From Streptomyces pactum (lineage in GTDB: Bacteria > Actinomycetota > Actinomycetes > Streptomycetales > Streptomycetaceae): 64,000 bases of DNA. Of this stretch, positions 22,856-64,000 are shown one piece after another. A program made the translations under genes and the position numbers. The stretch covers positions 930,001 through 994,000 of the forward strand of contig NZ_CP019724.1 of the NCBI RefSeq assembly GCF_002005225.1, read 5' to 3'. The first letter of the stretch is position 1. Each line of letters starts with the position of its first letter. The notes beneath the pieces were generated by a model, which was not told the DNA's origin, did no database searches, and worked only from the letters and a program-made list of their open reading frames with translations.

Positions 22856-22892
22856 AGATCCGGGACAGGACCTGGAGCCCCGTCCCGGATCT
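22856..22892. terminator. Bidirectional terminator between kinase and MMPL genes
   Basis: AGATCCGGGAC (22856-22866) and GTCCCGGATCT (22882-22892) form a perfect 11-bp stem with a 15-nt loop in the convergent spacer, 17 bp beyond the MMPL stop codon. A-rich sequence at the left edge (GAAAAGA) would give a short U-run for the minus strand. Confidence 0.75.
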
Positions 22893-22909
22893 CGTCCGTG
22901 CCGCCGCGC

Positions 22910-38768: not shown

Positions 38769-38845
38769 AGTTCCTCCTGATCCACCTGATGCGGATGAGA
38801 GGCCTTCACGCAGCAACGCGCCTTGCCCGGCAGGCCTGTGGGGGG

Positions 38846-38869
38846 ACTTGCTGAAACACGTCAGCAAGT
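38846..38869. promoter_or_regulatory. Candidate MalR/LacI-type operator upstream of the alpha-amylase gene
   Basis: ACTTGCTGA (38846-38854) and TCAGCAAGT (38861-38869) are perfect 9-bp inverted arms around 6 bp. A second related element lies further upstream: GCAAAGTCTTTCGCAAGC (38986-39003) next to CGTTTCAG (39003-39010), the inverse of CTGAAACG also found at the rfbA promoter. Confidence 0.6.
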
Positions 38870-46514: not shown

Positions 46515-47492
46515 TCACGCGGACGCGAGCAGCGGACGCCACCAGTCCGCGTGGCGCTCGTACCACTGGGCGGTCTCGGCCAGGGCGGCCGCGAAGTCGG
46601 TGCGGGGCCGGTATCCGAGTTCGGCGGTGATCTTGCTGTGGTCGACCGCGTAGCGCCGGTCGTGCCCCTTGCGGTCCTCGACGTGTTCGATCCGCTCCGG
46701 GACCGCTCCGCACAGGGCGAGCAGCCGGTGCGTGAGCTGCAGGTTGGACAGCGAGGTGCCGCCCCCGATGTTGTAGACCTCCCCCGGCCGGCCCGACACG
46801 CGGACGAGTTCGACGGCCCGGACGTGGTCGTCGACGTACAGCCAGTCGCGCTCGTACCGTCCGTCGCCGTAGAGCGGGACGGTGCCGCCGGACAGCAGGC
46901 GGGCCAGGAAGCGCGGGATGAGCTTCTCCGGGTGCTGACGGGGCCCGAAATTGTTCGAGCAGCGGGTCACCCGGACATCCAGTCCGTGCGTGCGGTGATG
47001 GGCCAGGGCGATCAGGTCCGAGGCCGCCTTCGACGCCGCGTACGGCGAGGTGGGCCGCAGGGGATCGCTCTCCTTGGCGGCCCCCTGGGGGAGGGAGCCG
47101 TACACCTCGTCGGTGGAGACGTGCACGAAGGTGCCCACGCCGTGGCGGAGTGCGGCGTCGAGCAGCACCTGCGTGCCCAGCACATTGGTGCGGGTGAAGG
47201 CGCCGCCGTCGGCGATGGAACGGTCGACGTGCGACTCGGCGGCGAAGTGCACGATCTGGTCGTGGCGTCGGGCCAGCGCGTCCACCAGGGACGCGTCGCA
47301 CACGTCGCCCTGGACGAAGGTGAGGTCGGGGTGGTCGCGCACCGCGTGGAGGCGTGCGAGGCTGCCGGCGTAGGTGAGTTTGTCGAGGACGGTCACCGCC
47401 GTGCCCCCGGGTCCTCGGGGTGACAGGAGGTAGCGGACGTAGGCGGAGCCGATGAAACCCGCCCCGCCGGTGACGAGGATCGCTGCGTTCAT
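46515..47492 (-). CDS. dTDP-glucose 4,6-dehydratase (AcbB-like)
   Basis: A 325-residue extended SDR. VTGGAGFIGSAYVR is the NAD site, HFAAESHVDRSI and VSTDEVYGSL are RmlB hallmarks, and SPYAASKAASD holds the catalytic Tyr and Lys. It converts dTDP-glucose to dTDP-4-keto-6-deoxyglucose. ATG 47492 overlaps the upstream gene's TGA (ATGA). No rhamnose genes (rmlC, rmlD) follow, and the neighbours match acarbose clusters, where AcbB makes this intermediate for the 4-amino-4,6-dideoxyglucose unit. Confidence 0.92.
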   Translation of the reverse strand: MNAAILVTGGAGFIGSAYVRYLLSPRGPGGTAVTVLDKLTYAGSLARLHAVRDHPDLTFVQGDVCDASLVDALARRHDQIVHFAAESHVDRSIADGGAFTRTNVLGTQVLLDAALRHGVGTFVHVSTDEVYGSLPQGAAKESDPLRPTSPYAASKAASDLIALAHHRTHGLDVRVTRCSNNFGPRQHPEKLIPRFLARLLSGGTVPLYGDGRYERDWLYVDDHVRAVELVRVSGRPGEVYNIGGGTSLSNLQLTHRLLALCGAVPERIEHVEDRKGHDRRYAVDHSKITAELGYRPRTDFAAALAETAQWYERHADWWRPLLASA

Positions 47493-48556
47493 GGGGTGAG
47501 GTACACCTTGCTGTGGTCGCCGATCACCAGGCGGTGAGCTTGCGGAAGACGGGGAGCGGGGCCCACGACGGCGCCGCGGCCGATGAGGGACGCCTCGATG
47601 CGGGACGCCCCCTCGACCTGCGCGCCGCGCAGCAGGACGGAGTACTCGACGGCACTGTCCTCGACCCGGCAGTCCTCCCCGATGGAGGTGTACGGGCCGA
47701 CGTTGGAGTTGCTGACGACGGCGCCCGCGCCGATGACCACCGGGCCGACGACGCGTGACCCGCGCACCACCGCGCCCTCGGCCACCCGGACTCGGCCGAT
47801 CAGCGTGCTGTGCGCGTCGACCTTGCCCTCGATCCGGCCCTCCAGCCCGTCGAGGACGTGGCGGTTGACCTCCAGCATGTCCTCCGCGCTGCCGGTGTCG
47901 CGCCAGGGCCGGGTGGTGGTCTCGGCGCGCACGCGCAACCCTTGGTCGACCATCCACTGCACGGCGTGGGTGATCTCCAGCTCGCCGCGTGCCGAGGGGG
48001 TGATGGCGCGCACCGCCTCGTGCACGGCCGGGCTGAAGGCGTACACGCCGATGAGGGCGAGCGCGCTGCGCGGAGTGTCGGGCTTCTCCTCCAGGCGCAG
48101 CACGTTCCCTTCGGCGTCGACCTCCGCGACTCCGAACGCGGAGGGGTCCGCCACGGGGGTCAGCAGCAGCCGGGCCGCCGCGGCATCGGCGGCGGCAAGA
48201 CGCACGAAGTCGGTGACCCCCTGCGGGAGGTAGTTGTCGCCCAGGTACAGCAGGAAGTCGTCGTCACCGAGGAAGTCGCGGGCGATGCGCACCGCGTGCG
48301 CGAGGCCGAGCGGGCGGGACTGTTGCAGGTAGGTGATGCGTAACCCGAACTCTGTCCCGTCGCCGGTCAGTTCGCGGATCTCGCGGCCGTGCGACCCCAC
48401 GACGACGCCGACTTCCCGGATGCCCGCCGCGGCGAGGGAGTCCAGCGCGTAGAACAGCACGGGTCTGTTGGCGATGGGGAGCAGATGCTTGGCGCCGGTG
48501 TGCGTGAACGGCCTCAGTCTGCTGCCGGTTCCGCCTGCCAGGACCAGGGCCTTCAC
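47489..48556 (-). CDS. Glucose-1-phosphate thymidylyltransferase, long form (AcbA-like)
   Basis: A 355-residue nucleotidyltransferase making dTDP-glucose from dTTP and glucose 1-phosphate. GTG 48556 has GGAGG five bases upstream and gives VKALVLAGGTGSRLRPFTHTGAKHLLP. LYLGDNYL and EKPDTPRSALALIGVY are conserved. A C-terminal left-handed beta-helix (RVRVAEGAVVRGSRVVGPV type repeats) marks the long StrD/AcbA subtype linked to antibiotic and aminocyclitol pathways rather than the ~290-residue RmlA. It forms an operon with the dehydratase and is divergent from the aminotransferase. Confidence 0.9.
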   Translation of the reverse strand: MKALVLAGGTGSRLRPFTHTGAKHLLPIANRPVLFYALDSLAAAGIREVGVVVGSHGREIRELTGDGTEFGLRITYLQQSRPLGLAHAVRIARDFLGDDDFLLYLGDNYLPQGVTDFVRLAAADAAAARLLLTPVADPSAFGVAEVDAEGNVLRLEEKPDTPRSALALIGVYAFSPAVHEAVRAITPSARGELEITHAVQWMVDQGLRVRAETTTRPWRDTGSAEDMLEVNRHVLDGLEGRIEGKVDAHSTLIGRVRVAEGAVVRGSRVVGPVVIGAGAVVSNSNVGPYTSIGEDCRVEDSAVEYSVLLRGAQVEGASRIEASLIGRGAVVGPAPRLPQAHRLVIGDHSKVYLTP

Positions 48557-48695
48557 CTCGGCCTCCGCGGGGGCGGACCGGTCGGGGGGCGTTTTCTCAC
48601 AGGTCTCTCCTCGCATGAGAGGCGTGGCATCGCCGTGGGCACATCGACTCAAGCAGACTGCCGTGCCCCCTCGCAACCACTTTCTGAAACGATCC

Positions 48696-48707
48696 GCAAG
48701 GTCTTGC
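48696..48707. promoter_or_regulatory. Candidate operator in the rfbA-aminotransferase intergenic region
   Basis: GCAAG (48696-48700) and CTTGC (48703-48707) flank GT, with CTGAAACG at 48684-48691 just beside it. The site lies in the 259-bp divergent spacer that must drive both arms of the cluster, and resembles the elements at malE and the amylase gene. Confidence 0.5.
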
Positions 48708-48815
48708 AGTCATCTGTGTTCAAGTGTTTGACTCAAGCCGAACCGCCAACCGTGGTGTGTCACACCGCAGTTCGCCGGTGATCGCGTACAGCCGGTCCGA
48801 CGAGCAGGGACAGCG

Positions 48816-50108
48816 ATGACAGGTTTACGGCAGACCCAGCACCTGGCACGGGAGGCCCGGCATCTGGCGCCGGGCGCTTCCGAGGAAGCCGTTCACGGAC
48901 GCCGGGTGTTCGCCGAGGGGCACGGTCCCGTGCTGACCGACCTCGACGGCAACCAGTACCTCGACTTCGCCGCCGGCACCCTCACGCAGTCCCTGGGCCA
49001 CGGGCACCCGGAGGTGGTCGAGGCGCTCTCCGCCCAGGCCCGCCGTCTGTGGAACGTCCACGACAGCGCCACTCCGGACCGCGCCGACCTGCTGGACCTG
49101 CTCGCCAGGCTGCTGCCCGAGCGGCTCGACACCTACGCGTTCTTCTCCACCGGCGCGGAGGTGGTCGAGGCCGCGCTGCGGGTCGTCCAGGCGACCGCGC
49201 CGCCGGGACGCAACCGGATCGGCGCCCTGCGGCACGGCTTCCACGGCAAGACCATGGGGGCCAGGATGCTCGTGCACTGGGACATCGGCCACCAGGCGTT
49301 CAGCGGCAACAGCGTGCTGGGCTACAGCCCTTACTGCTACCGCTGCCCCCTGGGGCTGGAGTACCCGTCGTGCGACGTGCGCTGCGCGACGCTGGTGCGC
49401 CGGCACATCGCCGAGAAGCCCAACGTCTCCGCGCTGGTCTTCGAACCCGTCCTCGGCGCGGCGGGGGTCATCGTGCCGCCGCCGGGTTACTGGGAACGCA
49501 TCGCGGACGCCTGCCGGGAGGGCGGCGTCCTGCTCGTCGCGGACGAGGTGCTCACCGGCGGCGGACGCACGGGGGCCTTCCTCGCCAGTGACCTCCTCGG
49601 CGTCGAACCGGACCTGGCGATGCTGTCCAAGGGCACCGCGAGCGGGTTCCCCTTCGCCGTTCTCGCCGGCCGTGCGGAGCTGCTGCGCAGGCCGGAAGCG
49701 GCCACCTCGGGGGCGTACGCATCGACGTACGCGAGCAACCCGCTGGGCATCGCCGCCGCCCGCGCCACGCTCGAGGTCGTCGAGCGCGACCGGCTGATCG
49801 ACCGCGTACGCGTCCTCGGCGAGATCATGGAGGACCGGCTGCGCGTCCTGGAGTCCCGCTTCGACCGGCTGGGCCAAGTGCGCGGCCTCGGGCTGCTGTG
49901 GGGCCTGGAGTTCGTCACCGACCCCGCCTCCCGCACACCCGCGCCGGAGACGGCCCGGGCCGTCTACACCACGGCCCTGGACCTGGGACTGCGCACCTCC
50001 CTCGGAGGCCACGTCCTGCGCCTGGCCCCGCCGTTCACCCTCGACGAGGCGCTGCTCGAGGAGGGTCTGCGGCTGTTGGAGAAGGCCCTCGAACGGGTGA
50101 TCGCGTGA
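48816..50108 (+). CDS. Class III PLP aminotransferase (AcbV-like)
   Basis: A 430-residue fold-type I enzyme. The PLP Lys is K272 in MLSKGTASGFPF, and the cofactor Asp is in LLVADEVLTGGGRTGAF. FFSTGAEVVEAALRV and RHGFHGKTMGARM match GabT/4-aminobutyrate-like enzymes. A cysteine-rich segment, YSPYCYRCPLGLEYPSCDVRC, is unusual but occurs in some members. In acarbose clusters AcbV, also class III, is proposed to aminate dTDP-4-keto-6-deoxyglucose to the 4-amino sugar that supplies the bridging nitrogen. The gene begins the long plus-strand operon, each gene overlapping the next by a few bases. Confidence 0.85.
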   Translation: MTGLRQTQHLAREARHLAPGASEEAVHGRRVFAEGHGPVLTDLDGNQYLDFAAGTLTQSLGHGHPEVVEALSAQARRLWNVHDSATPDRADLLDLLARLLPERLDTYAFFSTGAEVVEAALRVVQATAPPGRNRIGALRHGFHGKTMGARMLVHWDIGHQAFSGNSVLGYSPYCYRCPLGLEYPSCDVRCATLVRRHIAEKPNVSALVFEPVLGAAGVIVPPPGYWERIADACREGGVLLVADEVLTGGGRTGAFLASDLLGVEPDLAMLSKGTASGFPFAVLAGRAELLRRPEAATSGAYASTYASNPLGIAAARATLEVVERDRLIDRVRVLGEIMEDRLRVLESRFDRLGQVRGLGLLWGLEFVTDPASRTPAPETARAVYTTALDLGLRTSLGGHVLRLAPPFTLDEALLEEGLRLLEKALERVIA

Positions 50109-51151
50109 TCGTGGCGGAGCACCTCGTCAAGGAGTTCCGGCTGGCCGAACGCAAACCCGGCCTGCTCGGCAGCCTCTCCACCCTCCTCACCCGCCGCCAC
50201 CGCGTGGTGCGCGCGGTCGACGACGTCTCCTTCGAGATACCGGCCGGCACCAAGACGGCCTACATCGGCGCCAACGGAGCCGGCAAGTCGACCACGATCA
50301 AGATGCTGACCGGCATCATGACCCCCACCTCCGGCCGCTGCACGGTCGCCGGCCTGGAGCCGTACCGCCACCGGCAGCGCAACGCCCGCACCATCGGCGT
50401 CGTCTTCGGCCAGCGCAGCCAGCTGTGGTGGGACCTGTCGGTGCCGGACTCCTTCCGCATCCTGCGCCGCGTCTACGACATCCCCGAGCCGGTCTACCGG
50501 CGCAACCTCGGCCTGTTCCGCGAGCTCCTCGACATCGACGCGCTGGGTTCGACCCCCGTACGGCAGCTGAGCCTCGGCCAGCGCATGCGCGCCGAGATCG
50601 CGGCGAGCCTGCTGCACGACCCCGCCGTCCTGTTCTGGGACGAGCCCACCATCGGCCTCGACATGGTACTCAAGGACGCGGTGCGCCACCTGGTCAACCG
50701 CGCCCATCGGGAGCTGGGCACCACCGTGGTGCTCACCAGCCACGACATCGCCGACATCGGCGCGATCTGCGACAGCGCCCTGGTCGTCGACCACGGCCGG
50801 GTCGTCCACCAGGGGACCCTGAAGGACCTGCTGCGCACCGCCGACCACCGCTCGGTCGTCTTCGACCACCGGGACGGCACCGCGGCCGGTACCGTCCGCG
50901 CCCGCATCGAGGCCGGTCTGCCGGGCGTGCGCGCCACACCGGACGACGGCGGCCGCATCCGCGTCGACTACCCGACCGGCCGCTACACCTCCCGACAGGT
51001 CCTCACCTTCCTCCTGGACCACTTCGACCTCGCCGACTGGTACGCCCCCGAACCCGGCCTGGAGGACGTGCTACGCAAGATCTACGGCCGCGCACGCGTT
51101 CCCGGCGACACACCCGACGGGGCCGGCCGTACACCTGACGGTGCCGCATGA
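50105..51151 (+). CDS. ABC exporter ATP-binding protein (AcbW-like)
   Basis: A 348-residue ATPase. GTG 50105 overlaps the aminotransferase stop by 4 bp. Walker A is GANGAGKST, the signature is LSLGQRMRAE, Walker B is VLFWDEPTIGLD, and the switch His is in LTSHDIAD. The N-terminal FRLAERKPGLLGSL insertion is typical of ABC-2 ATPases paired with DUF990-type permeases. It drives the two permeases encoded next. In acarbose producers, AcbW with AcbX and AcbY is the proposed product exporter. Confidence 0.9.
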   Translation: MIVAEHLVKEFRLAERKPGLLGSLSTLLTRRHRVVRAVDDVSFEIPAGTKTAYIGANGAGKSTTIKMLTGIMTPTSGRCTVAGLEPYRHRQRNARTIGVVFGQRSQLWWDLSVPDSFRILRRVYDIPEPVYRRNLGLFRELLDIDALGSTPVRQLSLGQRMRAEIAASLLHDPAVLFWDEPTIGLDMVLKDAVRHLVNRAHRELGTTVVLTSHDIADIGAICDSALVVDHGRVVHQGTLKDLLRTADHRSVVFDHRDGTAAGTVRARIEAGLPGVRATPDDGGRIRVDYPTGRYTSRQVLTFLLDHFDLADWYAPEPGLEDVLRKIYGRARVPGDTPDGAGRTPDGAA

Positions 51152-51957
51152 CCGCCCGCCTGCGCCGCTACACGCCGTTCGCCACCAGCGGCCTGCAGTC
51201 CCTGCTGCAGTACCGCTCGATGTTCGCGATGACCGCGATGACCGCGGCCGCCGGCGCGGCGGTGACCGTCTTCCTGTGGCGCGCCGTGTACGCGGGCACA
51301 CCCGGCCGCGGACCCGGCGGCTTCACCGTGGAGGACATCACCACCTACCTGCTGGTGGCCCAGATCCTGCAGGTGCTGCACACCAACCGGGTGGACGACG
51401 AGGTCGCGGCCGAGGTGTACCGGGGTGACGTCGCGGTCATGCTGGTGCGCCCCGTCAGCTACCCGGTGATGCGGTTCTTCGCCTGCCTGCCCGTGGTGGG
51501 GGCCAACGCCGTCCTGGTCGGCCTGCCGGTCCTCGGCCTGTTCACGCTGCTCGTCCCGCTCACCGCGCCCCGGCCGGCGGACCTGCTGCTGTTCACCGTC
51601 TCCACCGTCCTGTCGGTGCTGCTGGCGTTCTGCGTGAACCTGCTGACCGGCATGACCGGTTTCCTCACCACCAACACCTGGGGCGTGCGGATGGTCAAGC
51701 AGAGCGTCGTCGCCTTCTTCGCCGGACAGCTCGTGCCGCTCGCGCTGATGCCGGGCCCGCTGGCCGCGCTCGCGAAGGCCCTGCCCTTCCGCGGAATGAT
51801 CGACAGTCCTCTGACCCTGCTGCTCGGCCGCTACGACGGCTGGGCGGAGGCCGCTGGGCTGGTCGCCCAGCAACTGGCCTGGGCAGTGGGGCTGTCGCTG
51901 CTGTGCGCCGCGCTGTGGCGCACCGCCCTGGGACGGCTGGAGGTGCTCGGCGGATGA
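51148..51957 (+). CDS. ABC-2 exporter permease 1 (AcbX-like)
   Basis: A 269-residue membrane protein with six predicted helices, beginning MTARLRRYTPFATSG and including VGANAVLVGLPVLGLFTLLV. It lies between its ATPase and a second, related permease with ATGA overlaps on both sides (51148-51151 and 51954-51957). Belongs to the ABC-2/DUF990 type, which commonly forms heterodimers. Probably exports the cluster product. Confidence 0.85.
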   Translation: MTARLRRYTPFATSGLQSLLQYRSMFAMTAMTAAAGAAVTVFLWRAVYAGTPGRGPGGFTVEDITTYLLVAQILQVLHTNRVDDEVAAEVYRGDVAVMLVRPVSYPVMRFFACLPVVGANAVLVGLPVLGLFTLLVPLTAPRPADLLLFTVSTVLSVLLAFCVNLLTGMTGFLTTNTWGVRMVKQSVVAFFAGQLVPLALMPGPLAALAKALPFRGMIDSPLTLLLGRYDGWAEAAGLVAQQLAWAVGLSLLCAALWRTALGRLEVLGG

Positions 51958-52754
51958 CGCGCACCATGACGCGGTACCTGCGGCTGGCCTGGTTCCTGGG
52001 TGGGGTGGGCCTGCACCGGCTGGCGACGTACCGCATGGACTTCGTGCTCGGCGCGGGCGCCTTCCTGGTGCGGGTCGGCATCCAGACGGCGGTCGTCGGC
52101 CTCGTCTTCCGGCAGGTCCCCGCCGTGGGCGGCTGGTCGTACCACGAGGTGCTGTTCCTGCTGGGGTTCTCCCTGCTGCCGCGCGGGCTCGACCACCTCT
52201 TCACCGACCAGTTGTGGGAACTGGGCCGCAAACTGGTCCAGCGCGGAGAGTTCTACCGCTACCTCGTCCGGCCGGTCGACCCGCTGTTCTCCTTGCTGTC
52301 GGAGCGCTTCTTCCACCCCGACGGGCTCGGCGAACTCGTCGTCGGCGCCGTCCTGGTGGGGTACGCGGGGAGCGAGCTCGGCCTGTCGCTCAGCCCCGTG
52401 CAGTGGCTGCTGGCGCCCGTGCTGGTGCTGTGCGGGGCGCTGCTGCACACCTCGGTGAAGCTGCTCTTCGCCTCCCTGTCCTTCTGGACGGTGACGAGCA
52501 TGCCCGCGATGTACGCGGCCAACCAGGTGTCGGAGTTCTCCGCCTACCCCCTGGACATCTACCACCCCTCGCTCAAGGCCCTGCTCACCTGGGTCCTGCC
52601 CTTCGCCTTCACCGCCTACGTGCCCTGCGTCTACCTGCTGAGCGGCGAGACCGGCCTGCTCGGCTGGCTGCCCGTGGTGACCGCCGGCGCCCTGGCCCTC
52701 GCGCTGACCGTCTGGCGCCGCGGCGTCAACCGCTACGAAATGACCGGGAGTTGA
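51954..52754 (+). CDS. ABC-2 exporter permease 2 (AcbY-like)
   Basis: A 266-residue membrane protein with about six helices; it starts at ATG 51954 inside ATGA. Features such as LGFSLLPRGLDHLFTDQLW, GEFYRYLVRPVDPLF and SLSFWTVTSMPAMYAANQV are typical of the second subunit of DUF990-type ABC-2 transporters. Together with the previous gene it should form the membrane channel of the exporter. Confidence 0.85.
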   Translation: MTRTMTRYLRLAWFLGGVGLHRLATYRMDFVLGAGAFLVRVGIQTAVVGLVFRQVPAVGGWSYHEVLFLLGFSLLPRGLDHLFTDQLWELGRKLVQRGEFYRYLVRPVDPLFSLLSERFFHPDGLGELVVGAVLVGYAGSELGLSLSPVQWLLAPVLVLCGALLHTSVKLLFASLSFWTVTSMPAMYAANQVSEFSAYPLDIYHPSLKALLTWVLPFAFTAYVPCVYLLSGETGLLGWLPVVTAGALALALTVWRRGVNRYEMTGS

Positions 52755-52761
52755 GCCTGGC

Positions 52762-54231
52762 ATGTTGAGAAACGACGATCTGGGCCCCCTACTGCGCACC
52801 GCCCCGTGGATACCCGAGGACGGTCGGCGGGCCGAGCGCTTCGAGTGCGTCGACCACGCGGACCTCGGCGCCACCGCCCGCCTGCTGGTCGTGGCCGCCG
52901 TCGGCGGGCCGGCGTCGGGCCGGCGCTACTTCGTGCCGGTGCGGTCCTCACCCACGGGGCACGGCGCCGAAGAGGCGCACGGAAGCGTCGAGTTCGACTC
53001 CGCCGTGCTGGACGCGGTCTGCGCCGGACGCCGGCTGCCCACCGCCCGCGGCGGCCGGGTGCTCTTCCGCGGCGCGGGACTCACCGCGCACTCGGTGCGC
53101 CGGCTGCCGTTCGACCGGGGCTGGTCCTCCAACGTGCTGTCCCTGGTGGAGAACGACGGGACGGCCTACGTCCACAAGACCTACCGGCGGCTGGACGAGA
53201 CCGTCCGGGAGCCGGAACTCCTGCGGCTGATGAAAGGGACCGGCCGCACCCCCGACTGGGCGGGCGACTACGCCTACGTCGACCCGGCGGACGGCACCCA
53301 CCGCCCGCTGGGCGTGTTCTACCGGTACGCCCCCGGAGACGGGATCGACCTGCCGCTGAGACACAGCATGCGGTCCCTGTGGCCGAAGGTGACCGGTGGA
53401 CGGGCCCCCGGCCCACTCGACGACGTCGTGCGGGCACACCTGCGCCCGCTCGCGGACAACCTGCGCGACGCCGGGCGCTTCCTGGCCGGCTTCCACCGCG
53501 ACCTGGCCGGCCGGCTCGGCCGGGGTCCCGTACCGCCGTACCCGGTACGGGAGATGCTGGCCCGGGCCACCGCCCGCACGGACGCACTGGCCTCGGCGGA
53601 CATCGACCTGCCCGAGGCCCCGCGCACCGCCGCCTTCGCGGCCCTGCGACAGGAGACCGCCGCGCTGCGGAGCGCCTTCGACGCCGCCCCGGCGGGGTTC
53701 CCCTCGGGGCCGTGCCACGGCGACCTGCACCTGTCCCACCTGCTGTGCCGGCCGCGCGACGACGGAGGCTGGTCGATGAACGTCATCGACCTGTCCACCC
53801 CCGCCCTCGGCCCCGGCGAGGCGGGCTGGGCCGCGCAGTCACCGGTCCAGGACCTGGTCGCCGTCCAGCGCGCCCTGGAGTACTTCACCGCCGACGAGGC
53901 GGCCTTCGAGAGCGCGCGGCGCCTCGGCGTCGACTCCATGGAGACGATGCGGGGGGCACTGGAGGACGCCGGCGACTGGCCGCCCGGGCCGCGCGCCGTA
54001 CTGCGCCCGGTCTTCCACGCCGCCGACGTCTGGCGGGCGCACGTGCTGCGGCTGCTCCTCGGACGCACGGTGGACGACCCCCTGCGCCGGCTGCTGTACC
54101 TGGACCGGCTGCTGCACGAACTCGCCTACAACACCGACCACGCCCGCCCGTACCACGCCGCGATCGACCTGCGCCACGCCCTCGCGCTCGGCGCCCGCAC
54201 CCCGGCCCCGACCCTTCCCGCAAGGACGTGA
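52762..54231 (+). CDS. Maltokinase/aminoglycoside phosphotransferase-like kinase (AcbU-like)
   Basis: A 489-residue protein with an N-terminal cap of ~110 residues, then an APH-type kinase fold. The catalytic loop is CHGDLHLSHLL (HGDxxxxN-like, with His/Ser replacing Asn as in maltokinases), and the metal site is VIDLS rather than the usual IDFD/IDWE, an odd change. The layout (cap domain, HGDLHLSQ-like loop) resembles Mak/Pep2 maltokinase. In the acarbose pathway AcbU phosphorylates the freed cyclitol before nucleotide activation; its place between exporter and glycosyltransferase genes matches acbU-acbS order. Substrate assignment rests on context. Confidence 0.75.
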   Translation: MLRNDDLGPLLRTAPWIPEDGRRAERFECVDHADLGATARLLVVAAVGGPASGRRYFVPVRSSPTGHGAEEAHGSVEFDSAVLDAVCAGRRLPTARGGRVLFRGAGLTAHSVRRLPFDRGWSSNVLSLVENDGTAYVHKTYRRLDETVREPELLRLMKGTGRTPDWAGDYAYVDPADGTHRPLGVFYRYAPGDGIDLPLRHSMRSLWPKVTGGRAPGPLDDVVRAHLRPLADNLRDAGRFLAGFHRDLAGRLGRGPVPPYPVREMLARATARTDALASADIDLPEAPRTAAFAALRQETAALRSAFDAAPAGFPSGPCHGDLHLSHLLCRPRDDGGWSMNVIDLSTPALGPGEAGWAAQSPVQDLVAVQRALEYFTADEAAFESARRLGVDSMETMRGALEDAGDWPPGPRAVLRPVFHAADVWRAHVLRLLLGRTVDDPLRRLLYLDRLLHELAYNTDHARPYHAAIDLRHALALGARTPAPTLPART

Positions 54232-54233
54232 AC

Positions 54234-56327: not shown

Positions 56328-57453
56328 GCGGGGAGGGGTGCGCGCGGTACTGCTGGCGGGCGGCGAGGGGCGGCGCATGGGGCCGCTGGGCGAAGGGCGC
56401 CTGAAGCCGCTCGTCCCGTACGGAGGTGCCTGCCGCCTGATCGACTTCAGTCTCGCCAACGCGCGCGACTCGGGACTGGGGGAAGTACTGCTGCTGTCCC
56501 AGTACGAGGAACGCCGGCTGATGGACGACCTGCACCGGGTGTGGAACCGCGCCCCGGGCTTCCGGGTGCACTTCGGGCCGTACGACGACGCCTACCGCGC
56601 CGCGGGCGCCGGGCTCCCCCGCGAGCTGCCCGCTCGTACCTGGCCGGCCGAGCGCGGTACCGCGGACGCCCTGATCCGCAAGGCCGGACACGTCTTCGGT
56701 GGTGACCGCGAGCAGGTCCTGGTGCTGCACGCGGACCACGTCTACCGCTTCGACTACCGGCCGCTGATCGCGGAGCACCGGGCCTCCGGCGCCGCCCTGA
56801 CCGTCGCCTACCAGCGGATCGAGCGGCGCTGGGTCCACCTGTTCGGGATGGTCCGCTTCGACCGGGCAGGCCGGCTCACCGAGTTCACGGAGAAGCCGGC
56901 CGAGCCGACCAGCGACCTGGTGTTCGCCGCGTTCTGCGTATTCGACGCCGCGGTGCTGCACCGCTACCTGGAGAAGCTGGACGGCGCCGACTGGCAGCAC
57001 GACATCAGCCGGGACGTCATCCCCGCGATGCTCGCGGGCGGCGAGGACATCCGCGGCCACGAGGTAGCCGGCCACTGGGAGGACATCGGCACCGTCGAGC
57101 GCTACCACCGGGCGCACCTGATGCTCGCGGCCGGCGGGCCGCGGGCCGGGCTCCCGGTCGAACGGATGCCCAGGACCGTCCGGCCCGGGGTGGACCGGGG
57201 CTGGGTGGCCGACTCCCTGGGCGTGGTCGCCTCGTTGGTCCCGGCGGACCTCGTCAACGAGGGCCGGGTGGAGCACAGCGTGCTCTTCCCCGGAGTCACC
57301 GTCGGGGCGGGCGCCCGGGTCCGGCGCAGCGTACTGCTGCCCGGTGCCACGGTCGGCCCAGGTCAGGACATCGACTCGGCGGTGGTCCTGGAGAACGGAC
57401 AGGTGCAGCGGGTCGAGGACCCCGCGGCCGTTGCGGAAGGAGCCCGTACATGA
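56320..57453 (+). CDS. GlgC-like sugar(cyclitol)-phosphate nucleotidyltransferase (AcbR-like)
   Basis: A 377-residue homologue of ADP-glucose pyrophosphorylase: [14 protein letters not shown], then [21 protein letters not shown], and a C-terminal beta-helix with [18 protein letters not shown]. Compared with the housekeeping glgC at 5,606 it departs in several blocks (RAKPAV becomes GRLKPLV; GSADAI becomes GTADAL). In acarbose biosynthesis AcbR makes nucleotide-activated valienol, reported as GDP-valienol. It overlaps the AcbS-like gene by 8 bp and the kinase gene by 4 bp. The presence of two diverged GlgC-type proteins in one window supports specialisation. Confidence 0.8.
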
Positions 57454-58373
57454 ACCCGTCCCCTTACGACGTCCTGGTGGTCGGCGGAGCCGGCGTGGAC
57501 ACCGTCGTCAGCGTCGAGAAACTGGAGGTCCCCCCGGGCGACTCGCTGCACGTGCCTCCGGTGTACGACTACGTGGCGCACACCGGCAACGGCGTGGCGC
57601 TCGGCTGGCACGCCCTGGGCCTCACCACCAAGTTCATCGACTTCCTCGGCGACGATCCCCAGGGTCACGCGGTGCTCGCCGCGTACGCCGGGCACGGTCT
57701 GGACTTCAGCCACGTGGTGTCCCCGCACGGCACCCCGCGCGGCGTCAACCTGGTCGACGCGCAGGGCCGCCGCTTCTCCTTCTACGACTCCCGGCACCCC
57801 GCGGACCTGCGGCTGCCGCGCGCCTTCTACCTGCCCCACCTGGAGCGGGCGCGCCACGTCCACCTCTCCATCGTGGGACACAACCGCGACCTGTACAGGG
57901 ACGTCCACCGGCTCGGGGTGACCAGCTCCACCGACCTGCACGACTGGGACGGGGTCAACCCCCACCACCGCGCCTACGCCCTCGCCTCCGACTACGTCTT
58001 CATGAGCGCCGCGGCCGTCCACGACCGGCTGGAGGAGGTCCTGCACGGCATCGTCGACGAGGGCCGGGCCCGCCTCGTCGTGGCCACCGACGGAGCGGAC
58101 GGCTGCCATGTGCTCGTGCGGGGTGAGGCTGGGGTACGCCACTTCCCGGCCGTGCGGCCGGAGCGGCCCGTCGTCGATTCCAACGGGGCCGGTGACGCCT
58201 TCGTCACCGCGTTCCTCCACGCCCGCTTCGAAGGGCGGCCGGTGGAGGAGTGCGTCCTGGCCGGATCGGTGTCCGGGGCCTTCGCCTGCGGTGCCGCCGG
58301 CACCCACACCGAGTTCATCGACCTGCCCGGCCTGCGCGCGGCCTGCGCCCGCGCGCAGGCCGCGGCGGAGTGA
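57450..58373 (+). CDS. PfkB-family carbohydrate kinase (acarbose 7-kinase, AcbK-like)
   Basis: A 307-residue ribokinase-fold kinase. The N-terminal motif is [13 protein letters not shown], and the C-terminal PfkB signature is [13 protein letters not shown] with catalytic base Asp249. [15 protein letters not shown] is the substrate-lid region. In acarbose producers AcbK phosphorylates acarbose at O-7, proposed to protect the producer. ATG 57450 overlaps the previous stop (ATGA). In Actinoplanes acbK follows acbQ; here it lies between the R-like and I-like genes, so gene order differs slightly. It is not fructose-specific as far as can be told. Confidence 0.82.
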
Positions 58374-58386
58374 AGGAGCGCCGCGC

Positions 58387-61300
58387 GTGCACATCGTCAC
58401 CTTCTCCTTCGAGTGCGGCGGCTTCGACAACCGGCTGATGCGCGGCGGGCTGTCCCCGCTCGTGTGGAACCTGTCCCGTGAGTACGCCGCACGCGGCCAC
58501 CGCGTCTCGCTGGTCACACCCGCGCACGGTCACCTTCAGGCCCTGCGGGAGCGGTTCGACGTCCGGGAGCTCGACTACCGCGACGAGCACACGGTGCCGC
58601 TGGTGCTCGACCCCAAGGTGTGGCCCGGCCGGCCCGCCGAGACCGGTCTCGCCCTCGACACCCGCGCCCACCTGTTACGCCTGGACGGCGTGGACGTCTA
58701 CCTGCTGTCCGACGCCTTCCTGGACCTGCTGCCGGACCGGCTCTACCCGCCTCCGGCCCTCGAGGGCCGGGACCTGGCGTACCTCAAGCCGCTGGTCTTC
58801 CAGGTCGGCGGCCTGCGCTTCGTCCAGCGCCACCTGGCGGACGGCCCGGCGGTCGTGCACGGCTTCGAGCCCTATTACCACTACCTGCTGCCCGCGGTCC
58901 TCGCCGACGACGACCGGTATCGGACGGTGACCACGGTCGCCGCGAACGCCCCCGTCACGCAGAAGGTGTACCGGCCGCAGGTGGAACGGCTGCTGGAGCT
59001 CTTCGGGGTCCGCGGACCGGACCTCGACGCCCTGGACGGGCCACCGCCCGCCGAGGACTCCCCCCTGGCCACCATGGCCCGGGCGCTGGCCGGCACCCGT
59101 ATGCACGTCGAGTACGGGCCGGACCACGTGGGTGTGTTCCCGCTGATCGCCGACCGCGCGGATCTGATCGACTTCGTGTCCCCCGGTCAGCGCGACCACT
59201 ACGTCACCTGGCAGGACACGCCGTTCGAAGCCCTGTTCCGGTCGCTGCCCGTGGCGCGGCGGCTGCGGGAACGGCCGGACCGGCTGCTGGCCGGCGGCTG
59301 CGGCATCGCGGACAGCTGGCTGGCGCGCGACCCGGAGGCCGTGGACCGGGCCGCGGTGCGCCGGTCGCTCGGTCTGACGGGCACCGGTCCGGTCTTCTAC
59401 CACGCCGCCCGCTACGCGGTGCACCACAAGGGCCAGCTGGAGCTGATGCGGGCCGTGGAGGAGGTGCTGGCCGCAGATCCGGAGGTGGGTTTCGTGATCC
59501 GCTGCTCGACCGGGGGCGGCGGTGACGCGCCGACGGCGGTCGCGAACGCCGCGTTCCAGCGGCTCGCCGACCGCTTCCCGGGACAACTCCGCCTGGAATG
59601 GCGGCTCGCCGACGAGGACACGTTGTTCGAGCAGGCGGCGAGCGCCGACTTCTGCGTGTATCCGTCCAAGTTCGAACTGGACGGCTTCCTCATCGCCCAG
59701 GCCGAGGCGATGGCCTGCGGGGCGGTGCCGATCGCCACCGCCCAGCGGGTGACCTCCCACTTCGGGCACGGGCGACCCCTCGACGACCCGGACGCGACGG
59801 GCTTCTCCGTGCCCGGTTCCTTCCGCGACGACGACCCGGGGCTGGCCCGGGCCCTCGCCGGGCGAATACGCGAGGCAGTGACGGTCTTCCGCACGGCACC
59901 CGGCACCTACGCCCGGCTCTCGGGCAACGCCCGGCGCCTGGGCCGCTCGTTCACCTGGGCCCGCAGCGCGGACCTGCGTCTGGCCGCCTACGAACGTCTG
60001 CTGCGCGGCGAGCGCGCGCAGCCGCCGACCGGAGAACTGGTCGAGCGGGGCTGGCTGGAGGCGCTGCCGCCCGCCGCCCGCACCGAGCATCGTGAGCTGA
60101 TCGCGCGGGCGGCGACGGAACGCGGTGACGCCACCGCCCTCGCCCGCGTTCTCGGGTGCGGCGTCGACGAACTCGGAGCGGACGACTGGGAGCGGTTGTT
60201 CACCTCGGCCCACCGCCGGGGGGACTTCACCCGCTGTGCCGAACTGGCCCGGCGGGCGGGCCGGCCGGACCTGTGGGCCCGGCAGGCCAACCGCTTCCGG
60301 CTCACCGCCGCTCCGGACGGCACGTGGCGCGTGCGGTACGCGCACGCCGAGGCGGAACGGGTCGAGCTGGTGGTCGAGGCATCCGCGACGACGGGCACGG
60401 CCCCCGGCCGGGCCCCGACGGCCACCACCCTCGTCGCACCCGCTGCCCAGGCCCCGAGCACGGCCACCGTGTCCGCGGCACCCGTGGTCACGGCTGTCGC
60501 GGGCACGACTGCCGCCGGCACGGCCCGCTCGGACGTGGCTGCCCTGGACACGGACTCCACGGACGTCCCCTCCACAGACGCAGCTGCCGCGGACGGTGAA
60601 GCGCGGGAAGCCGGCGCTCCGCGCCCCCCGCTGGAGTCGGTCACCGAGGCCCTCGCCTCCGACGAGCCGGCTCCCGCCTCCGGCGGTGCCGTGCTGCGGC
60701 CGCTCGCCGCCGGCGGCGCCGGAGTGTTCACGGGGACACTGGACGGACCGCCCGTCGGAAGTCACGCCGTCGCCATGGTGACCCTGCGCTCCGGCCGGGT
60801 GGTCTGGGACACCGTGCCGACCCGCGCACCCGCGTTCCGGCTGGTGGCGACCGATCTCGACGGCACGCTGCTGCGCAGCGACCTGACCGTGTCGGCGCGC
60901 ACCCGCCGGGCGCTGGAACGGGTCGCCGCCTCCGGCGCCCACCACCTGGTGGTCACCGGACGCCCCGCGGTGGCCTGCAGGCAGCTTCTGAACGCCCTCG
61001 GCTACCGAGGGCTGGCCGTCTGCGGCCAGGGCGCGCAACTGTACGACGCCGGTGCGGACCGCCTGCTGTCCTCGGTGTCCCTGGACCGTGATCTCGCCCG
61101 CGGCGTCGTCGCGAAGGTCGAGGCCGAACTGGGCCGGGTCGAGCTCGGCGTCGTCACCTCGCCGCCGGAGAGCCGGTTCCAGGTGACCCCCGGCTTCGGG
61201 GAACGGGTCCGCCATGGCTGGGACGTGACCACCGACCCGGGCCGGCTGTGGGCGGCGCCCATCGACAAGCTGATCCTGCACCACCCGCACGTCGACGAGG

Positions 61301-61638
61301 ACCGGCTGGCCGCCGTCGCACAACGGCTGACGGACGGTGAGGTGACCGTCGTGCACTCGGTCAAGGGCATGGTGGAGGTCCTGCCCGCGGGCACCGACAA
61401 GGGCGCCGGTGTGGCCCGGGCCGCCGAACTGCTGGGCTTCACCGGCGCCGACACCGTCGCCTTCGGCGACATGCCCAACGACATCCCGCTGCTGGCCTGG
61501 GCCGCTCACGGCGTGGCGGTCGCCAATGCCCACCACGATCTGCGGGCCATGGCCGACGAGGTCGCCCCGGGCAACGACGAGGACGGGGTCGCCGCCGTCC
61601 TCGAACGCCTCTTCGCGCCGGAAGGGGGCCGTCCGTGA
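58387..61638 (+). CDS. Glycosyltransferase-HAD phosphatase fusion (AcbI-AcbJ-like)
   Basis: A 1,083-residue bifunctional protein from GTG 58387, AAGGAG eight bases upstream. Residues ~1-560 are a starch-synthase-like glycosyltransferase homologous to the one at 54,234 ([45 protein letters not shown]). Residues ~660-800 are an Ala/Thr/Pro-rich linker. Residues ~815-1080 are a Cof-type HAD phosphatase: nucleophile Asp823 in ATDLDGTLL, TGRPAVACR, KLILHHP, DKGAGVARA and FGDMPNDIPLL. In Actinoplanes acbI and acbJ are separate neighbours: AcbI makes the amino-sugar trisaccharide from dTDP-amino sugar and maltose, AcbJ dephosphorylates valienol 7-phosphate. Here both appear in one chain. I saw no frameshift or internal stop. 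Confidence 0.85.
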   Translation: MHIVTFSFECGGFDNRLMRGGLSPLVWNLSREYAARGHRVSLVTPAHGHLQALRERFDVRELDYRDEHTVPLVLDPKVWPGRPAETGLALDTRAHLLRLDGVDVYLLSDAFLDLLPDRLYPPPALEGRDLAYLKPLVFQVGGLRFVQRHLADGPAVVHGFEPYYHYLLPAVLADDDRYRTVTTVAANAPVTQKVYRPQVERLLELFGVRGPDLDALDGPPPAEDSPLATMARALAGTRMHVEYGPDHVGVFPLIADRADLIDFVSPGQRDHYVTWQDTPFEALFRSLPVARRLRERPDRLLAGGCGIADSWLARDPEAVDRAAVRRSLGLTGTGPVFYHAARYAVHHKGQLELMRAVEEVLAADPEVGFVIRCSTGGGGDAPTAVANAAFQRLADRFPGQLRLEWRLADEDTLFEQAASADFCVYPSKFELDGFLIAQAEAMACGAVPIATAQRVTSHFGHGRPLDDPDATGFSVPGSFRDDDPGLARALAGRIREAVTVFRTAPGTYARLSGNARRLGRSFTWARSADLRLAAYERLLRGERAQPPTGELVERGWLEALPPAARTEHRELIARAATERGDATALARVLGCGVDELGADDWERLFTSAHRRGDFTRCAELARRAGRPDLWARQANRFRLTAAPDGTWRVRYAHAEAERVELVVEASATTGTAPGRAPTATTLVAPAAQAPSTATVSAAPVVTAVAGTTAAGTARSDVAALDTDSTDVPSTDAAAADGEAREAGAPRPPLESVTEALASDEPAPASGGAVLRPLAAGGAGVFTGTLDGPPVGSHAVAMVTLRSGRVVWDTVPTRAPAFRLVATDLDGTLLRSDLTVSARTRRALERVAASGAHHLVVTGRPAVACRQLLNALGYRGLAVCGQGAQLYDAGADRLLSSVSLDRDLARGVVAKVEAELGRVELGVVTSPPESRFQVTPGFGERVRHGWDVTTDPGRLWAAPIDKLILHHPHVDEDRLAAVAQRLTDGEVTVVHSVKGMVEVLPAGTDKGAGVARAAELLGFTGADTVAFGDMPNDIPLLAWAAHGVAVANAHHDLRAMADEVAPGNDEDGVAAVLERLFAPEGGRP

Positions 61639-63728
61639 CCCGCCCCACCGCGCCCGGCTCGTCCCTGCGGGACCTGGCCCGCGCGCACGGCGTGAGCACC
61701 GAGTACGTCACCGACCGCGGTGACCGCGTCATCGTCGCCGCGGACACCCTGGTCGCGGTCCTGGCCGCGTGCGGCGTGGACGCGAGCACCCCGGACGCCG
61801 CCCGACGGGCCCTGGCCGCCCGGCGCGCGGCGGACGCGGACAGGCTGCTTCCGCCCTGCGTGGTCGTCCGTGCCGGATCGGCCGCGGGACTGCGGCTGCC
61901 GTCCGGCGCCGAGGCCCGCGTCGCCCTGGAGGACGGTGGCGAGAAAGCTCCCGAGGACCCGCTGCCGCCGGGCGCCCACGTCCTGCACGCCGTGGCGGGC
62001 CGGCGGCGGGCGTCCGCTCCGCTGCTGTCGGTGCCCGAGCGCATCCCCGTGCCCGAGCGGCGCGCATGGGGCTTCCTGGTCCAGCTGTACTCGGTGCTCT
62101 CCCGCAGGTCCTGGGGCATGGGCGACCTGGCCGACCTCGCGGAGCTGGCCTCCTGGTCCGGCCGCGCGCTGGGCGCCGGCTTCGTCCAGCTGGGGCCGCT
62201 GCACGCGGCGGAGCCGGGTCCGCTGCCCGATCCGTCGCCGTACCGGCCGAGTTCACGGCGGTTCGCGGACCCGATGCACGTCCGGGTGGAGGAGGTGCCG
62301 GAGTACCGGTACCTGGACCGGGAGGCCCGCCGCGCGGCGGACTCCTGCGCCGCCCGGGCGCGGGCCCTCAACGAGCGCGTGCTGAGCGGTGGGAACCTGA
62401 TCGACCGGGAAGTGGTGCGCGCCCTCAAGTTCGAGGCGCTGCGCCATGTGTACCGGGTGCCGGCCCCGCCCGGCCGCCGTGCGGCTCTGGAGGCGTTCAC
62501 CGCCCGCGAGGGCGGGGACCTGACGGACTTCGCCACCTGGTCCGCGCTGGCCGAGGTGCACGGGAGCGCCTGGCGGTCCTGGCCCGAGGGGTTGCGCGAC
62601 CCGCGGTCGCCGCGGGTGGCCGAGGCGCGCGAGGAACTGGCGGAAGCCGTCGCGTTCCACCGCTGGCTGGCGTGGATCACCGACGAGCAGCTCGCCGCCG
62701 CGCAGCGCGTGGCGAAGGACGCGGGCATGGACATCGGCCTGGTGCACGACCTGGCGGTGGGCGTCGCCCCCGAGGGGGCCGACGCCTGGACGCTGCAGCA
62801 CTGCCTGGCCGGCGGGATGAGCGTCGGGGCCCCACCGGACGACTTCAATCCGCTCGGTCAGGACTGGGGCCAGCCGCCCTGGCGGCCGGACGCGCTGGCC
62901 GCCGAGGGATACCGGCCGCTGGCCGGGCTGCTGCGCGCCGGCATGCGGCACGCGGGGGCCCTGCGGGTCGACCACGTCATGGGGCTGTTCCGGTTGTGGT
63001 GGGTGCCCGAGGGCCGGCCCCCATCCGAGGGGACCTACGTCCGCTACGACGCCGAGGCCATGCTCGGCGTGCTGCTCCTGGAGGCCCACCGGGTTGGGGT
63101 GGCGGTGATCGGCGAGGACCTCGGCACGGTGGAGCGCGGTGTCCGCGAGGAGCTGGCCGCGCGCGGCGTGCTCGGCACGTCGGTGCAGCGCTTCGAGTAC
63201 CTGGGCGGTTCCGAGGGACGGCACGGTCCGCTGCCGCCGCGGCAGTGGCGCAGGAACTGCCTGGCCACGCTGACCACCCACGACCTTCCGACGACCACCG
63301 CATGGCTGAGCGGCGAACACGTCGACCTGCGGGCCCGGCTGGGACTGCTGACCCGCCCGGAACCGGAGGAGAAGGCGCAAGCGGCGGCCGAGCGGGACGG
63401 CTGGCTGGCCGAACTGAGCCGGCAGGGCCTGCTGCCCGACGCCGACGGCGAGCTGGTCGCCCTGCACCGTTTCCTGACCCGTACCCCGTCCACCCTGCTC
63501 GGGGTCTGGCTGCCGGACGCCACCGGCGACCGCAGGCCCCAGAACCTGCCCGGTACCGCTGACGTGCACCCCAACTGGAGGCTGCCGGTGGCGGACGGGC
63601 ACGGCCGGCCGGTGCCCTTGGAGGACCTGCCCGGCCATCCCCGTGTACAGGCCGTCGCCCGCGTGTTCGCCGACGGTGAACCGCACGGAACGAAGACCGA
63701 GGAGAGAGATGTCAGGCCAGGCCCTTGA
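61635..63728 (+). CDS. 4-alpha-glucanotransferase (amylomaltase, AcbQ/MalQ-like)
   Basis: A 697-residue GH77 enzyme, GTG 61635 within GTGA. The nucleophile is Asp446 in ALRVDHVMGLFRLWW, the acid/base is Glu494 in VIGEDLGTV, and the transition-state Asp is in TTHDLPTT. An N-terminal helical extension of ~150 residues is typical of actinobacterial MalQ. It rearranges maltodextrins, giving maltose and glucose acceptors. In acarbose clusters AcbQ has the same position near I/J and K and may supply the maltose unit. Overlaps the next gene by 20 bp. Confidence 0.9.
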   Translation: MTRPTAPGSSLRDLARAHGVSTEYVTDRGDRVIVAADTLVAVLAACGVDASTPDAARRALAARRAADADRLLPPCVVVRAGSAAGLRLPSGAEARVALEDGGEKAPEDPLPPGAHVLHAVAGRRRASAPLLSVPERIPVPERRAWGFLVQLYSVLSRRSWGMGDLADLAELASWSGRALGAGFVQLGPLHAAEPGPLPDPSPYRPSSRRFADPMHVRVEEVPEYRYLDREARRAADSCAARARALNERVLSGGNLIDREVVRALKFEALRHVYRVPAPPGRRAALEAFTAREGGDLTDFATWSALAEVHGSAWRSWPEGLRDPRSPRVAEAREELAEAVAFHRWLAWITDEQLAAAQRVAKDAGMDIGLVHDLAVGVAPEGADAWTLQHCLAGGMSVGAPPDDFNPLGQDWGQPPWRPDALAAEGYRPLAGLLRAGMRHAGALRVDHVMGLFRLWWVPEGRPPSEGTYVRYDAEAMLGVLLLEAHRVGVAVIGEDLGTVERGVREELAARGVLGTSVQRFEYLGGSEGRHGPLPPRQWRRNCLATLTTHDLPTTTAWLSGEHVDLRARLGLLTRPEPEEKAQAAAERDGWLAELSRQGLLPDADGELVALHRFLTRTPSTLLGVWLPDATGDRRPQNLPGTADVHPNWRLPVADGHGRPVPLEDLPGHPRVQAVARVFADGEPHGTKTEERDVRPGP

Positions 63729-64000
63729 TCGGCTCGAGGGGGTCCGCGAGGACTCCGGAGGCTTCGACCTGCTGGCGCCGGACGGCACACGCTACCGTGT
63801 GGACGTCACCGATGGGGTGTTCGACCCCCGCAACCCGCTCCTCGCGGGCTATGTGACGGGACGGCGTGTGGTGGCCTTCGTCGGCCCCACGGTGGACCGT
63901 CTCCACGGCGACCGGCTGCGCGCCTACCTCGACGCCCGGCTGGAACCGGGCATCTGGAGCGTCCACACCATCGACAGCGGTGAACGGAACAAGACCCTCA
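63709..64000 (+). CDS. Sugar-phosphate cyclase, N-terminal part (2-epi-5-epi-valiolone synthase, AcbC-like), cut by window
   Basis: ATG 63709 has GAGGAGA just upstream and starts inside the amylomaltase gene. The 97 visible residues include YRVDVTDGVFDPRNPLL, then RRVVAFVGPTVDRLHGDRLRAY, and SVHTIDSGERNKTL. The arrangement (VxDxVFD, RR-VxxFVxxTVxxL-G, then SGExNKT) fits the N-terminal NAD-binding region of 3-dehydroquinate-synthase-like cyclases, best the EEVS group that cyclises sedoheptulose 7-phosphate. The catalytic and metal residues are beyond the edge, so the EEVS subclass is inferred mainly from cluster context. Confidence 0.72.
   Translation, partial: MSGQALDRLEGVREDSGGFDLLAPDGTRYRVDVTDGVFDPRNPLLAGYVTGRRVVAFVGPTVDRLHGDRLRAYLDARLEPGIWSVHTIDSGERNKTL

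Follow-up and report, generated by a model that had tools for sequence, protein, structure and literature searches.

A probable gac-type acarbose/acarviostatin gene cluster in Streptomyces pactum with cupin and RmlD-like genes in its predicted cyclitol branch

The C7N pseudo-oligosaccharide acarbose is a diabetes drug in wide use. The pathway to it is established for Actinoplanes, where the reactions of AcbU, AcbJ, AcbR, AcbI and AcbS (PMC9200736) and of AcbM, AcbO, AcbL and AcbN (PMC7081202) have been characterised. In Streptomyces, the GLA.O cluster of S. glaucescens is described as an acarbose cluster (PMC9200736), the acarbose cluster of Streptomyces sp. JHA26 has already been published (PMC13240717), and LacI regulators and the Scaim peptide are reported from S. 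coelicoflavus ZG0656 (PMC5526262, PMC13240717). Here we analyse a stretch of 64,000 nt from Streptomyces pactum (the window; contig NZ_CP019724.1:930001-994000 of a one-contig, 8.55-Mb genome) and compare its genes with these systems. The gene content points, with a probability of roughly 0.93, to a complete gac-type (Streptomyces) cluster for the biosynthesis, export and uptake of a C7N pseudo-oligosaccharide (acarbose/acarviostatin) and for self-resistance to it. A preliminary description of this DNA had proposed an acarbose/acarviostatin-type cluster, a reading that our comparison supports and amends to gac-type rather than acb-type (Actinoplanes). It had confined the cluster to 46515..64000 and taken this piece for its left part; the genes are there, but the span is too narrow, and the piece is the middle of a cluster that continues leftwards with an importer, with amylases and with a gene for a tendamistat-like protein. 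Judged from gene content, the borders lie at ~27.6 and ~73.2 kb, a span of ~45.6 kb of which 9.2 kb beyond the window end were read from the same genome (positions above 64000 are window-extended numbering, in an extended stretch of 103 kb).

Open frames, codon-position composition and profile searches confirmed the order B, A (minus strand) and V, W, X, Y, U, S, R, K, I-J, Q, C (plus strand), and each of the families named earlier was recovered in the stated order and strand as a frame free of internal stops. The minus-strand genes encode a dTDP-glucose 4,6-dehydratase (B, 46515..47492; TIGR01181, 407.6 bits, cut-off 365.1) and a glucose-1-phosphate thymidylyltransferase (A, 47489..48616; TIGR01208, 413.3 bits, cut-off 320.25). 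On the plus strand lie a class III aminotransferase (V, 48816..50108; PF00202), with 70-98% identity in the loci that hold V, and the genes of a three-part exporter, namely an ABC exporter ATPase (W, 50105..51151; PF00005) and two ABC-2 membrane proteins (X, 51148..51957, and Y, 51954..52754; both PF06182). These are followed by an APH-like kinase predicted to be a valienol-7-phosphate 1-kinase (U, 52762..54231; PF01636, 29.8 bits, cut-off 23.2), a predicted pseudoglycosyltransferase of the AcbS clade (S, 54234..56327), a predicted GlgC-like cyclitol nucleotidyltransferase (R, 56320..57453; PF00483) and an acarbose-7-kinase-like PfkB protein (K, 57450..58373; PF00294), 48% identical to its Actinoplanes homologue. 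The profiles, the reading frame and a glycosyltransferase (GT) tree identify the next gene (58387..61638, 1083 amino acids) as a fusion of an AcbI-clade GT with a Cof-type HAD phosphatase (I-J), and the row ends with a GH77 4-alpha-glucanotransferase (Q, 61635..63728; PF02446; 57-59% to the Actinoplanes homologue) and a cyclase (C, 63709..64875) that is cut by the window end at 64000 and whole in the genome. That the cluster is decayed or permanently silent would be compatible with its being known here from sequence alone; this is very unlikely, given that all 28 frames read as genes run without an internal stop and that the proteins are highly identical to those of relatives. For 18 frames the ends were re-set; the start of the GacF/MalF-like gene stays approximate.

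We compared the cluster with 47 related loci, 46 from one contig scan of named genomes and one from a plasmid of Streptomyces sp. NBC_00467; the first 12 loci listed in the scan are all from Streptomyces. Homologues of V, W, X, Y, U, S, R, I, J, Q and C occur together in 34 of the 47. The order and strand of this set are the same as here in 29 loci, 19 of which have K between R and I; in five loci the full set is arranged differently, and the remaining 13, several of which are truncated at a contig end, lack some of the genes. Chance co-occurrence, already called implausible in the preliminary description, is excluded because so many loci hold the full set and most of these keep the order and strand. 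Furthermore, the gene set required in PMC13240717 (A, V, W, X, Y, U, S, R, K, I, Q, C, J, M, O) has its counterparts here: homologues of A to C together with the HAD, cupin, ROK kinase and RmlD-like genes are present in order, and gene order suggests that J, M and O of that list are the cupin, ROK and RmlD-like genes. In a sample of 61 relatives' genomes, a match to S (E <= 0.001) was found in five, this genome included, one of them weak and outside the genus.

The closest relatives, in a table that excludes matches covering less than half of the query, share 90-99% identity in the proteins compared (Streptomyces sp. DH5, 13-12-16, S. caelestis, S. fumanus, S. griseomycini and JHA26), with 93-99% for JHA26, S. 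griseomycini and S. caelestis. As to whether this is a known cluster or a new relative, it is a close relative of the published JHA26 cluster (PMC13240717). JHA26 shares 94-99% identity, GacH and the LacI regulator included, and a fused I-J; the Gaim peptide and two His-to-Asn pullulanases reported there (PMC13240717) have counterparts here, whereas a GMC oxidoreductase and aldo-keto reductase (AKR) pair present here is missing there. S. griseomycini CECT 3273 (94-99%) has this pair at the same place and the same gene content in the stretches compared. The gac cluster of S. glaucescens, from the draft of NRRL B-2706, is 85-94% identical from H to S and from R to J, with I-J fused; no ROK match was found in this broken-up draft. 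S. coelicoflavus NBRC 15399, of acarviostatin type, shares the core and the fused I-J but is more distant (70-81% for most core proteins, 61% for U, 62% for I and 51% for H) and has no GMC relative above 35% over its length. The Actinoplanes acb cluster, represented in the literature by SE50/110 and here by A. sandaracinus as the one Actinoplanes cluster compared, shares V, W, X, Y, U, S, R, K, I, J, Q, the ROK kinase and the cyclase; it differs in having a TIM-barrel protein, a zinc-dependent alcohol dehydrogenase, a short-chain dehydrogenase/reductase (SDR) and separate I and J, in contrast to the cupin, RmlD-like protein and fused I-J here. The plasmid cluster of NBC_00467 (44-74% identity) has the core genes, cupin, ROK, RmlD, GMC and AKR, but with one S-type GT in the cluster, a separate HAD gene, another arrangement and additional radical SAM and NUDIX genes. 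That cluster lies on a linear 396-kb plasmid (NZ_CP107895.1) typed as non-mobilizable, which carries, beyond an IS4 transposase, a LacI gene and separate glycogen-synthase-like and HAD genes. Beyond what has been published, the present analysis adds the comparison with own-genome paralogues for this strain, the collinear maltose-like arm, the pattern of cupin and RmlD versus O, L and N, and the presence or absence of the GMC/AKR pair.

The glycosyltransferases place the cluster within its class. In a tree of 81 GT rows, which excluded matches shorter than 1350 bases (the S. glaucescens S fragment is too short for it), S rows and I rows split at forks of 100% support in the SH-aLRT (Shimodaira-Hasegawa-like approximate likelihood ratio test). 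S of the window groups with Actinoplanes S, and I with the I proteins of Actinoplanes and S. glaucescens; these proteins fall in the AcbS and AcbI branches, so that grouping with exopolysaccharide rather than acb homologues, an outcome named in the preliminary description as refuting its reading, is not what was observed. An exopolysaccharide or glycogen-metabolism locus that merely resembles acarbose genes could account for the GlgA-, GlgC- and MalQ-like families. We rejected this explanation, whose probability is practically negligible: R, S and I score far under the cut-offs of the GlgC and GlgA models (202.8 bits for R with the glgC model, cut-off 424.9), the locus includes a 2-epi-5-epi-valiolone synthase (EEVS)-type cyclase and GacH, and it shares S, I and the gene order with S. 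glaucescens-type clusters. Less easily set aside is a main product of the same class other than acarbose, namely an acarviostatin or trestatin with several acarviosine units or a trehalose end, given that the core genes are common to all three cluster types, which differ in pseudoglycosyltransferase architecture (PMC13240717). Although possible, such a product is not the one favoured by the closest matches: the tree puts I together with its S. glaucescens counterpart and away from that of S. coelicoflavus, S is 91% identical to S. glaucescens S (387 residues on its contig) versus 70-71% to S. coelicoflavus S, and it is GLA.O of S. glaucescens that is described as an acarbose cluster (PMC9200736). 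By length alone, S has 697 amino acids and its S. coelicoflavus match 694. The end branch of S measures 0.03 in the tree, compared with 0.005-0.01 in several sister S proteins, and that of I is not lengthened. We also set aside an AcbD-like acarviosyltransferase: in the extended window, to which this search was confined, the cyclodextrin glucanotransferase-like Actinoplanes protein matched amylases alone (25-38%), and the CBM20 protein of the cluster is closest to alpha-amylases among solved structures.

I and J, given as I/J in the preliminary description, are both present and form one single gene here. Of the 47 loci examined, 41 have a J homologue. By the criterion of a stop-free frame of at least 1000 codons around J, the two genes are fused in 31 of these (three being identical copies in S. 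alfalfae), whereas the remaining 10, which include those of Actinoplanes, Kitasatospora and NBC_00467, keep them apart. AcbI and AcbJ act in different branches of the pathway (PMC9200736), so the fusion does not link successive steps. By eye, the GT and HAD domains are linked by an Ala/Thr/Pro-rich stretch of ~100 residues.

Among solved structures, the cyclase C matches 4p53, which we take to be ValA, with 250.6 bits and the best 3-dehydroquinate synthase with 186.3 bits. A signature column, presumably that of ValA Asp281, holds Asp in 42 of 43 cluster cyclases, Actinoplanes included, and Asn in all six non-cluster paralogues; the 43rd, from S. cupreus PSKA01 (locus L038), gave no motif match. 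The only other cyclase match in the S. pactum genome is a paralogue of 33% identity at 6.98 Mb. This separate paralogue and the Asp-versus-Asn difference rule out C as the housekeeping 3-dehydroquinate synthase, the identity that the preliminary description, coupling it with a lack of cyclitol-processing genes, had named as refuting its reading, and support an EEVS-type enzyme. C is only 39-42% identical to the A. sandaracinus cyclase. The cyclase tree has long branches, with AcbC and the S. cupreus protein far out, and was not used for placing AcbC. The S. cupreus PSKA01 locus has ROK, RmlD, GMC and AKR genes, and its sole cyclase match, of 36%, lies on the opposite strand, so a different cyclase may be in use there.

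Genes of cyclitol-processing type follow the cyclase, where the preliminary description had proposed to look for them: to the right of the window lie a cupin (64872-65246; Cupin_2), a ROK kinase (M, 65227-66315; PF00480; 32-34% to the Actinoplanes ROK) and an RmlD-like reductase of the SDR type (66312-67235; profile search). In Actinoplanes, AcbO isomerises as an epimerase, AcbL dehydrates and AcbN reduces (PMC7081202). We searched with the TIM-barrel, zinc-dependent alcohol dehydrogenase and SDR proteins of A. sandaracinus, assigned to AcbO, AcbL and AcbN by gene order and domain. With AcbO, neither S. pactum nor five further Streptomyces genomes gave a match, and Nocardiopsis gave a partial one of 36%; with AcbL, these seven cluster-bearing genomes outside Actinoplanes gave only generic zinc-dependent alcohol dehydrogenase relatives, the best in S. 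pactum scoring 43 bits versus 786 for the self-match. Among the 47 related loci, both matched at the Actinoplanes locus only (E <= 1e-3). Within the 103-kb stretch, to which its search was confined, AcbN gave a single short match (40% over 67 residues), which lies in the RmlD-like gene. The search for M, L, N and O proposed in the preliminary description thus recovers M as the ROK kinase, finds L and O without an orthologue in the genome and leaves N as that single short match.

The cupin and the RmlD-like protein are conserved in their place. A cupin occurs in 40 of 48 loci, and the eight misses comprise five short or cut loci, two Actinoplanes stretches and S. cupreus. Its HxH...E motif is kept in all 41 rows, the window's included, and the His of the second cupin motif is invariant in the alignments. 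The RmlD-like protein has its cofactor and YxxxK motifs in 21 of 21 rows and directly follows ROK in all 13 downstream stretches fetched, one of them cut by a contig end. By analogy, the two proteins may act with an RmlC/RmlD-like division of labour, which narrows the Streptomyces cyclitol branch to two small conserved proteins. No paper assigning the cupin or RmlD-like steps in Streptomyces was found in the literature searched, most subscription journals being outside its scope. Rockser and Wehmeier are said to have described in 2009 a different cyclitol branch in gac.

A route can be proposed on this basis. C would convert sedoheptulose 7-phosphate to 2-epi-5-epi-valiolone, which the ROK kinase would phosphorylate, and the cupin and RmlD-like reductase would replace AcbO, AcbL and AcbN in leading to valienol 7-phosphate. 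The cupin might enolise next to the C1 ketone, allowing C2 epimerisation and possibly C5-C6 dehydration, and the RmlD-like reductase might reduce C1. U, the HAD domain J and R would carry valienol 7-phosphate to GDP-valienol, and A, B and V would supply dTDP-4-amino-4,6-dideoxyglucose. The GT domain I would join the sugar of the latter to maltose, S would make the C-N bond and W-X-Y would export the product. Amylases with resistance-associated substitutions could keep feeding the cell, GacHFG may import the product or product-linked maltodextrins, K would phosphorylate the re-imported product and the GMC/AKR pair could provide an optional tailoring or salvage step.

The GMC oxidoreductase (67413-68918) and AKR (69078-70025), both identified by profile search and followed by a CBM25 amylase (70257-73223; profile search), vary among near-identical clusters. 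In S. griseomycini the pair sits at the same place and is 97-98% identical. JHA26 lacks positions 67418-70035 (2618 bp): it keeps the GMC start codon plus two bases and resumes ten bases past the AKR stop. The remnant start codon argues for loss in JHA26, and the gap in S. caelestis has different end points and is slightly larger. We read the two gaps as probable separate losses, the alternative being a shared deletion that later eroded further; a GMC tree of 11 rows did not resolve gain versus loss. A GMC relative of at least 63% identity occurs in 11 of 21 cluster-bearing genomes, and the other 10 have a match of at most 36% over most of the length, at most 51% over short parts, or none; these whole-genome tallies cover the genomes chosen rather than all relatives, and the site beside the cluster was read only in stretches fetched. 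The idea that GMC and AKR substitute for AcbL and AcbN was dropped because a close GMC is absent from those 10 genomes.

The pair might mark a variant pathway to an acarbose altered in redox state or stereochemistry, a product not made by JHA26-type strains. We hold this only tentatively. Its presence here and in S. griseomycini, its absence from the near-identical JHA26 and S. caelestis with gaps of differing end points, the close relatives in other cluster-bearing genomes and the radical SAM gene that adjoins the pair in some other clusters speak for it. Clusters that lack the pair but are intact in their core suggest, however, that its step is dispensable; a radical SAM gene was found in six of 24 genomes searched (E <= 1e-30), with no such partner in S. 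pactum, and the closest solved relatives of the GMC protein are generic alcohol and choline oxidases. The joint proposal that the Streptomyces route to valienol 7-phosphate is non-homologous to that of Actinoplanes (a metal-binding cupin epimerising and dehydrating, an RmlD-like protein reducing) and that the GMC/AKR pair, cleanly deleted in sister strains, adds redox tailoring toward an undescribed acarbose congener is doubtful. Near-identical clusters with and without the redox pair offer a natural experiment on its role.

The left arm of the predicted gac-type cluster holds uptake and starch-degrading genes. A LacI-family regulator similar to MalR, AcrC and GarC (45404..46444, plus strand; PF00356/PF13377) is 74% identical to that of the maltose locus of this genome. 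To its left, on the minus strand, lie a GacH-type acarbose/maltose binding protein (43871..45145), a GacF/MalF-like permease (42822..43820) and a GacG/MalG-like permease (41941..42825; both PF00528), and an AglA-like GH13 alpha-glucosidase (40228..41913; Pfam) 70% identical to its maltose-locus paralogue. The GacH-type protein scores 803.6 bits to S. glaucescens GacH (PDB 3jzj), compared with 323 bits for the next different solved relative, and its best own-genome paralogue is 47% identical. Pfam searches further identified, on the same strand, an alpha-1,4-amylase with CBM20 (37068..38867, its start codon likely further in), a second GH13/PUD amylase (33779..36919) and a pullulanase-type amylase with GH13, PUD and pullulanase domains (28371..34001); the first-start frames of the latter two overlap, and their true starts may be further in. 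At the left border is a tendamistat-like proteinaceous alpha-amylase inhibitor of 109 amino acids (27619..27948, minus; PF01356, 92.8 bits, cut-off 25), the one match in the whole genome, with a start that by eye resembles a signal peptide.

Region II of the two cluster pullulanases reads GFRVDTAKN (in the second amylase) and GFRVDTVRN, versus GFRIDTVKH in the paralogue at 6.136 Mb, a change of His to Asn. In the CBM20 amylase, Gly and Thr stand in place of the His and Asp of its own-genome paralogue at two positions 58 residues apart, which equals the spacing of H235G and D293T (PMC13240717). According to that paper, such substitutions are enriched in acarbose-cluster amylases, the pullulanase change being backed by cited mutational studies and the other two by docking; the JHA26 pullulanases are likewise compared with own-genome paralogues, His-to-Asn is also reported from 11 genomes without acarbose clusters, and not every acarbose genome carries it. 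By their sequences, three cluster amylases thus carry resistance-associated substitutions that their own-genome paralogues lack. The left arm is collinear with the maltose locus at ~6.126-6.140 Mb, which shares its gene content and order (regulator, E, F, G, agl, amylase, pullulanase) at 45-74% identity but has one pullulanase as opposed to two in the cluster. The left arm looks like a self-resistance and uptake module built by duplication of this housekeeping locus, the direction being inferred.

Regulation by the LacI-family protein was approached through candidate operators. A GCAAG-N2-CTTGC palindrome in the A/V divergent promoter (48696..48707) resembles the AcrC/MalR operator core (PMC5526262), and a GCAAG-N9-CTTGC palindrome lies upstream of the tendamistat-like gene. 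A broader pattern, chosen after the promoters had been read, occurs twice in 1619 promoter bases versus a shuffle mean of 0.08 (largest 2), and three times in the whole 103 kb versus 1.08 in shuffles (largest 4). A stricter operator pattern gave one match versus 1.30 expected, and an inverted-repeat search of two promoters returned nothing operator-like.

Several points weigh against the interpretation given here. The operator evidence is weak, with one pattern no better than chance, and the candidate sites are suggestive only. The cupin matches no NCBIfam model and, as a domain, only the general Cupin_2; its closest solved relative is a putative oxalate decarboxylase (36 bits), and the S. cupreus cluster has no cupin match. 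The Actinoplanes cyclitol enzymes are missing, so the cyclitol part of the route is not homologous to theirs and is a guess. More generally, the genes, families, clades, signature residues and conservation are established directly; the cluster is known here from its genes, and every reaction is a prediction, drawn from homology to characterised Actinoplanes enzymes or, for the cupin and the reductase, from chemical analogy.

Beyond the left border, a frame of 230 amino acids (20563-21255) precedes the gene of a HAMP histidine kinase (21252-22703), with that of an MMPL transporter (22910-25087) on the opposite strand; the genes at 20563-25087 are likely unrelated to the cluster. To the right of it, at 77.7-103 kb in the window-extended numbering, are large open frames, one of which, judged by eye and from frames only, starts like a phage tail sheath protein (MPVNVTYPGVYIDEVKSSVRTIAGV...). 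Their appearance is suggestive of a contractile injection system.

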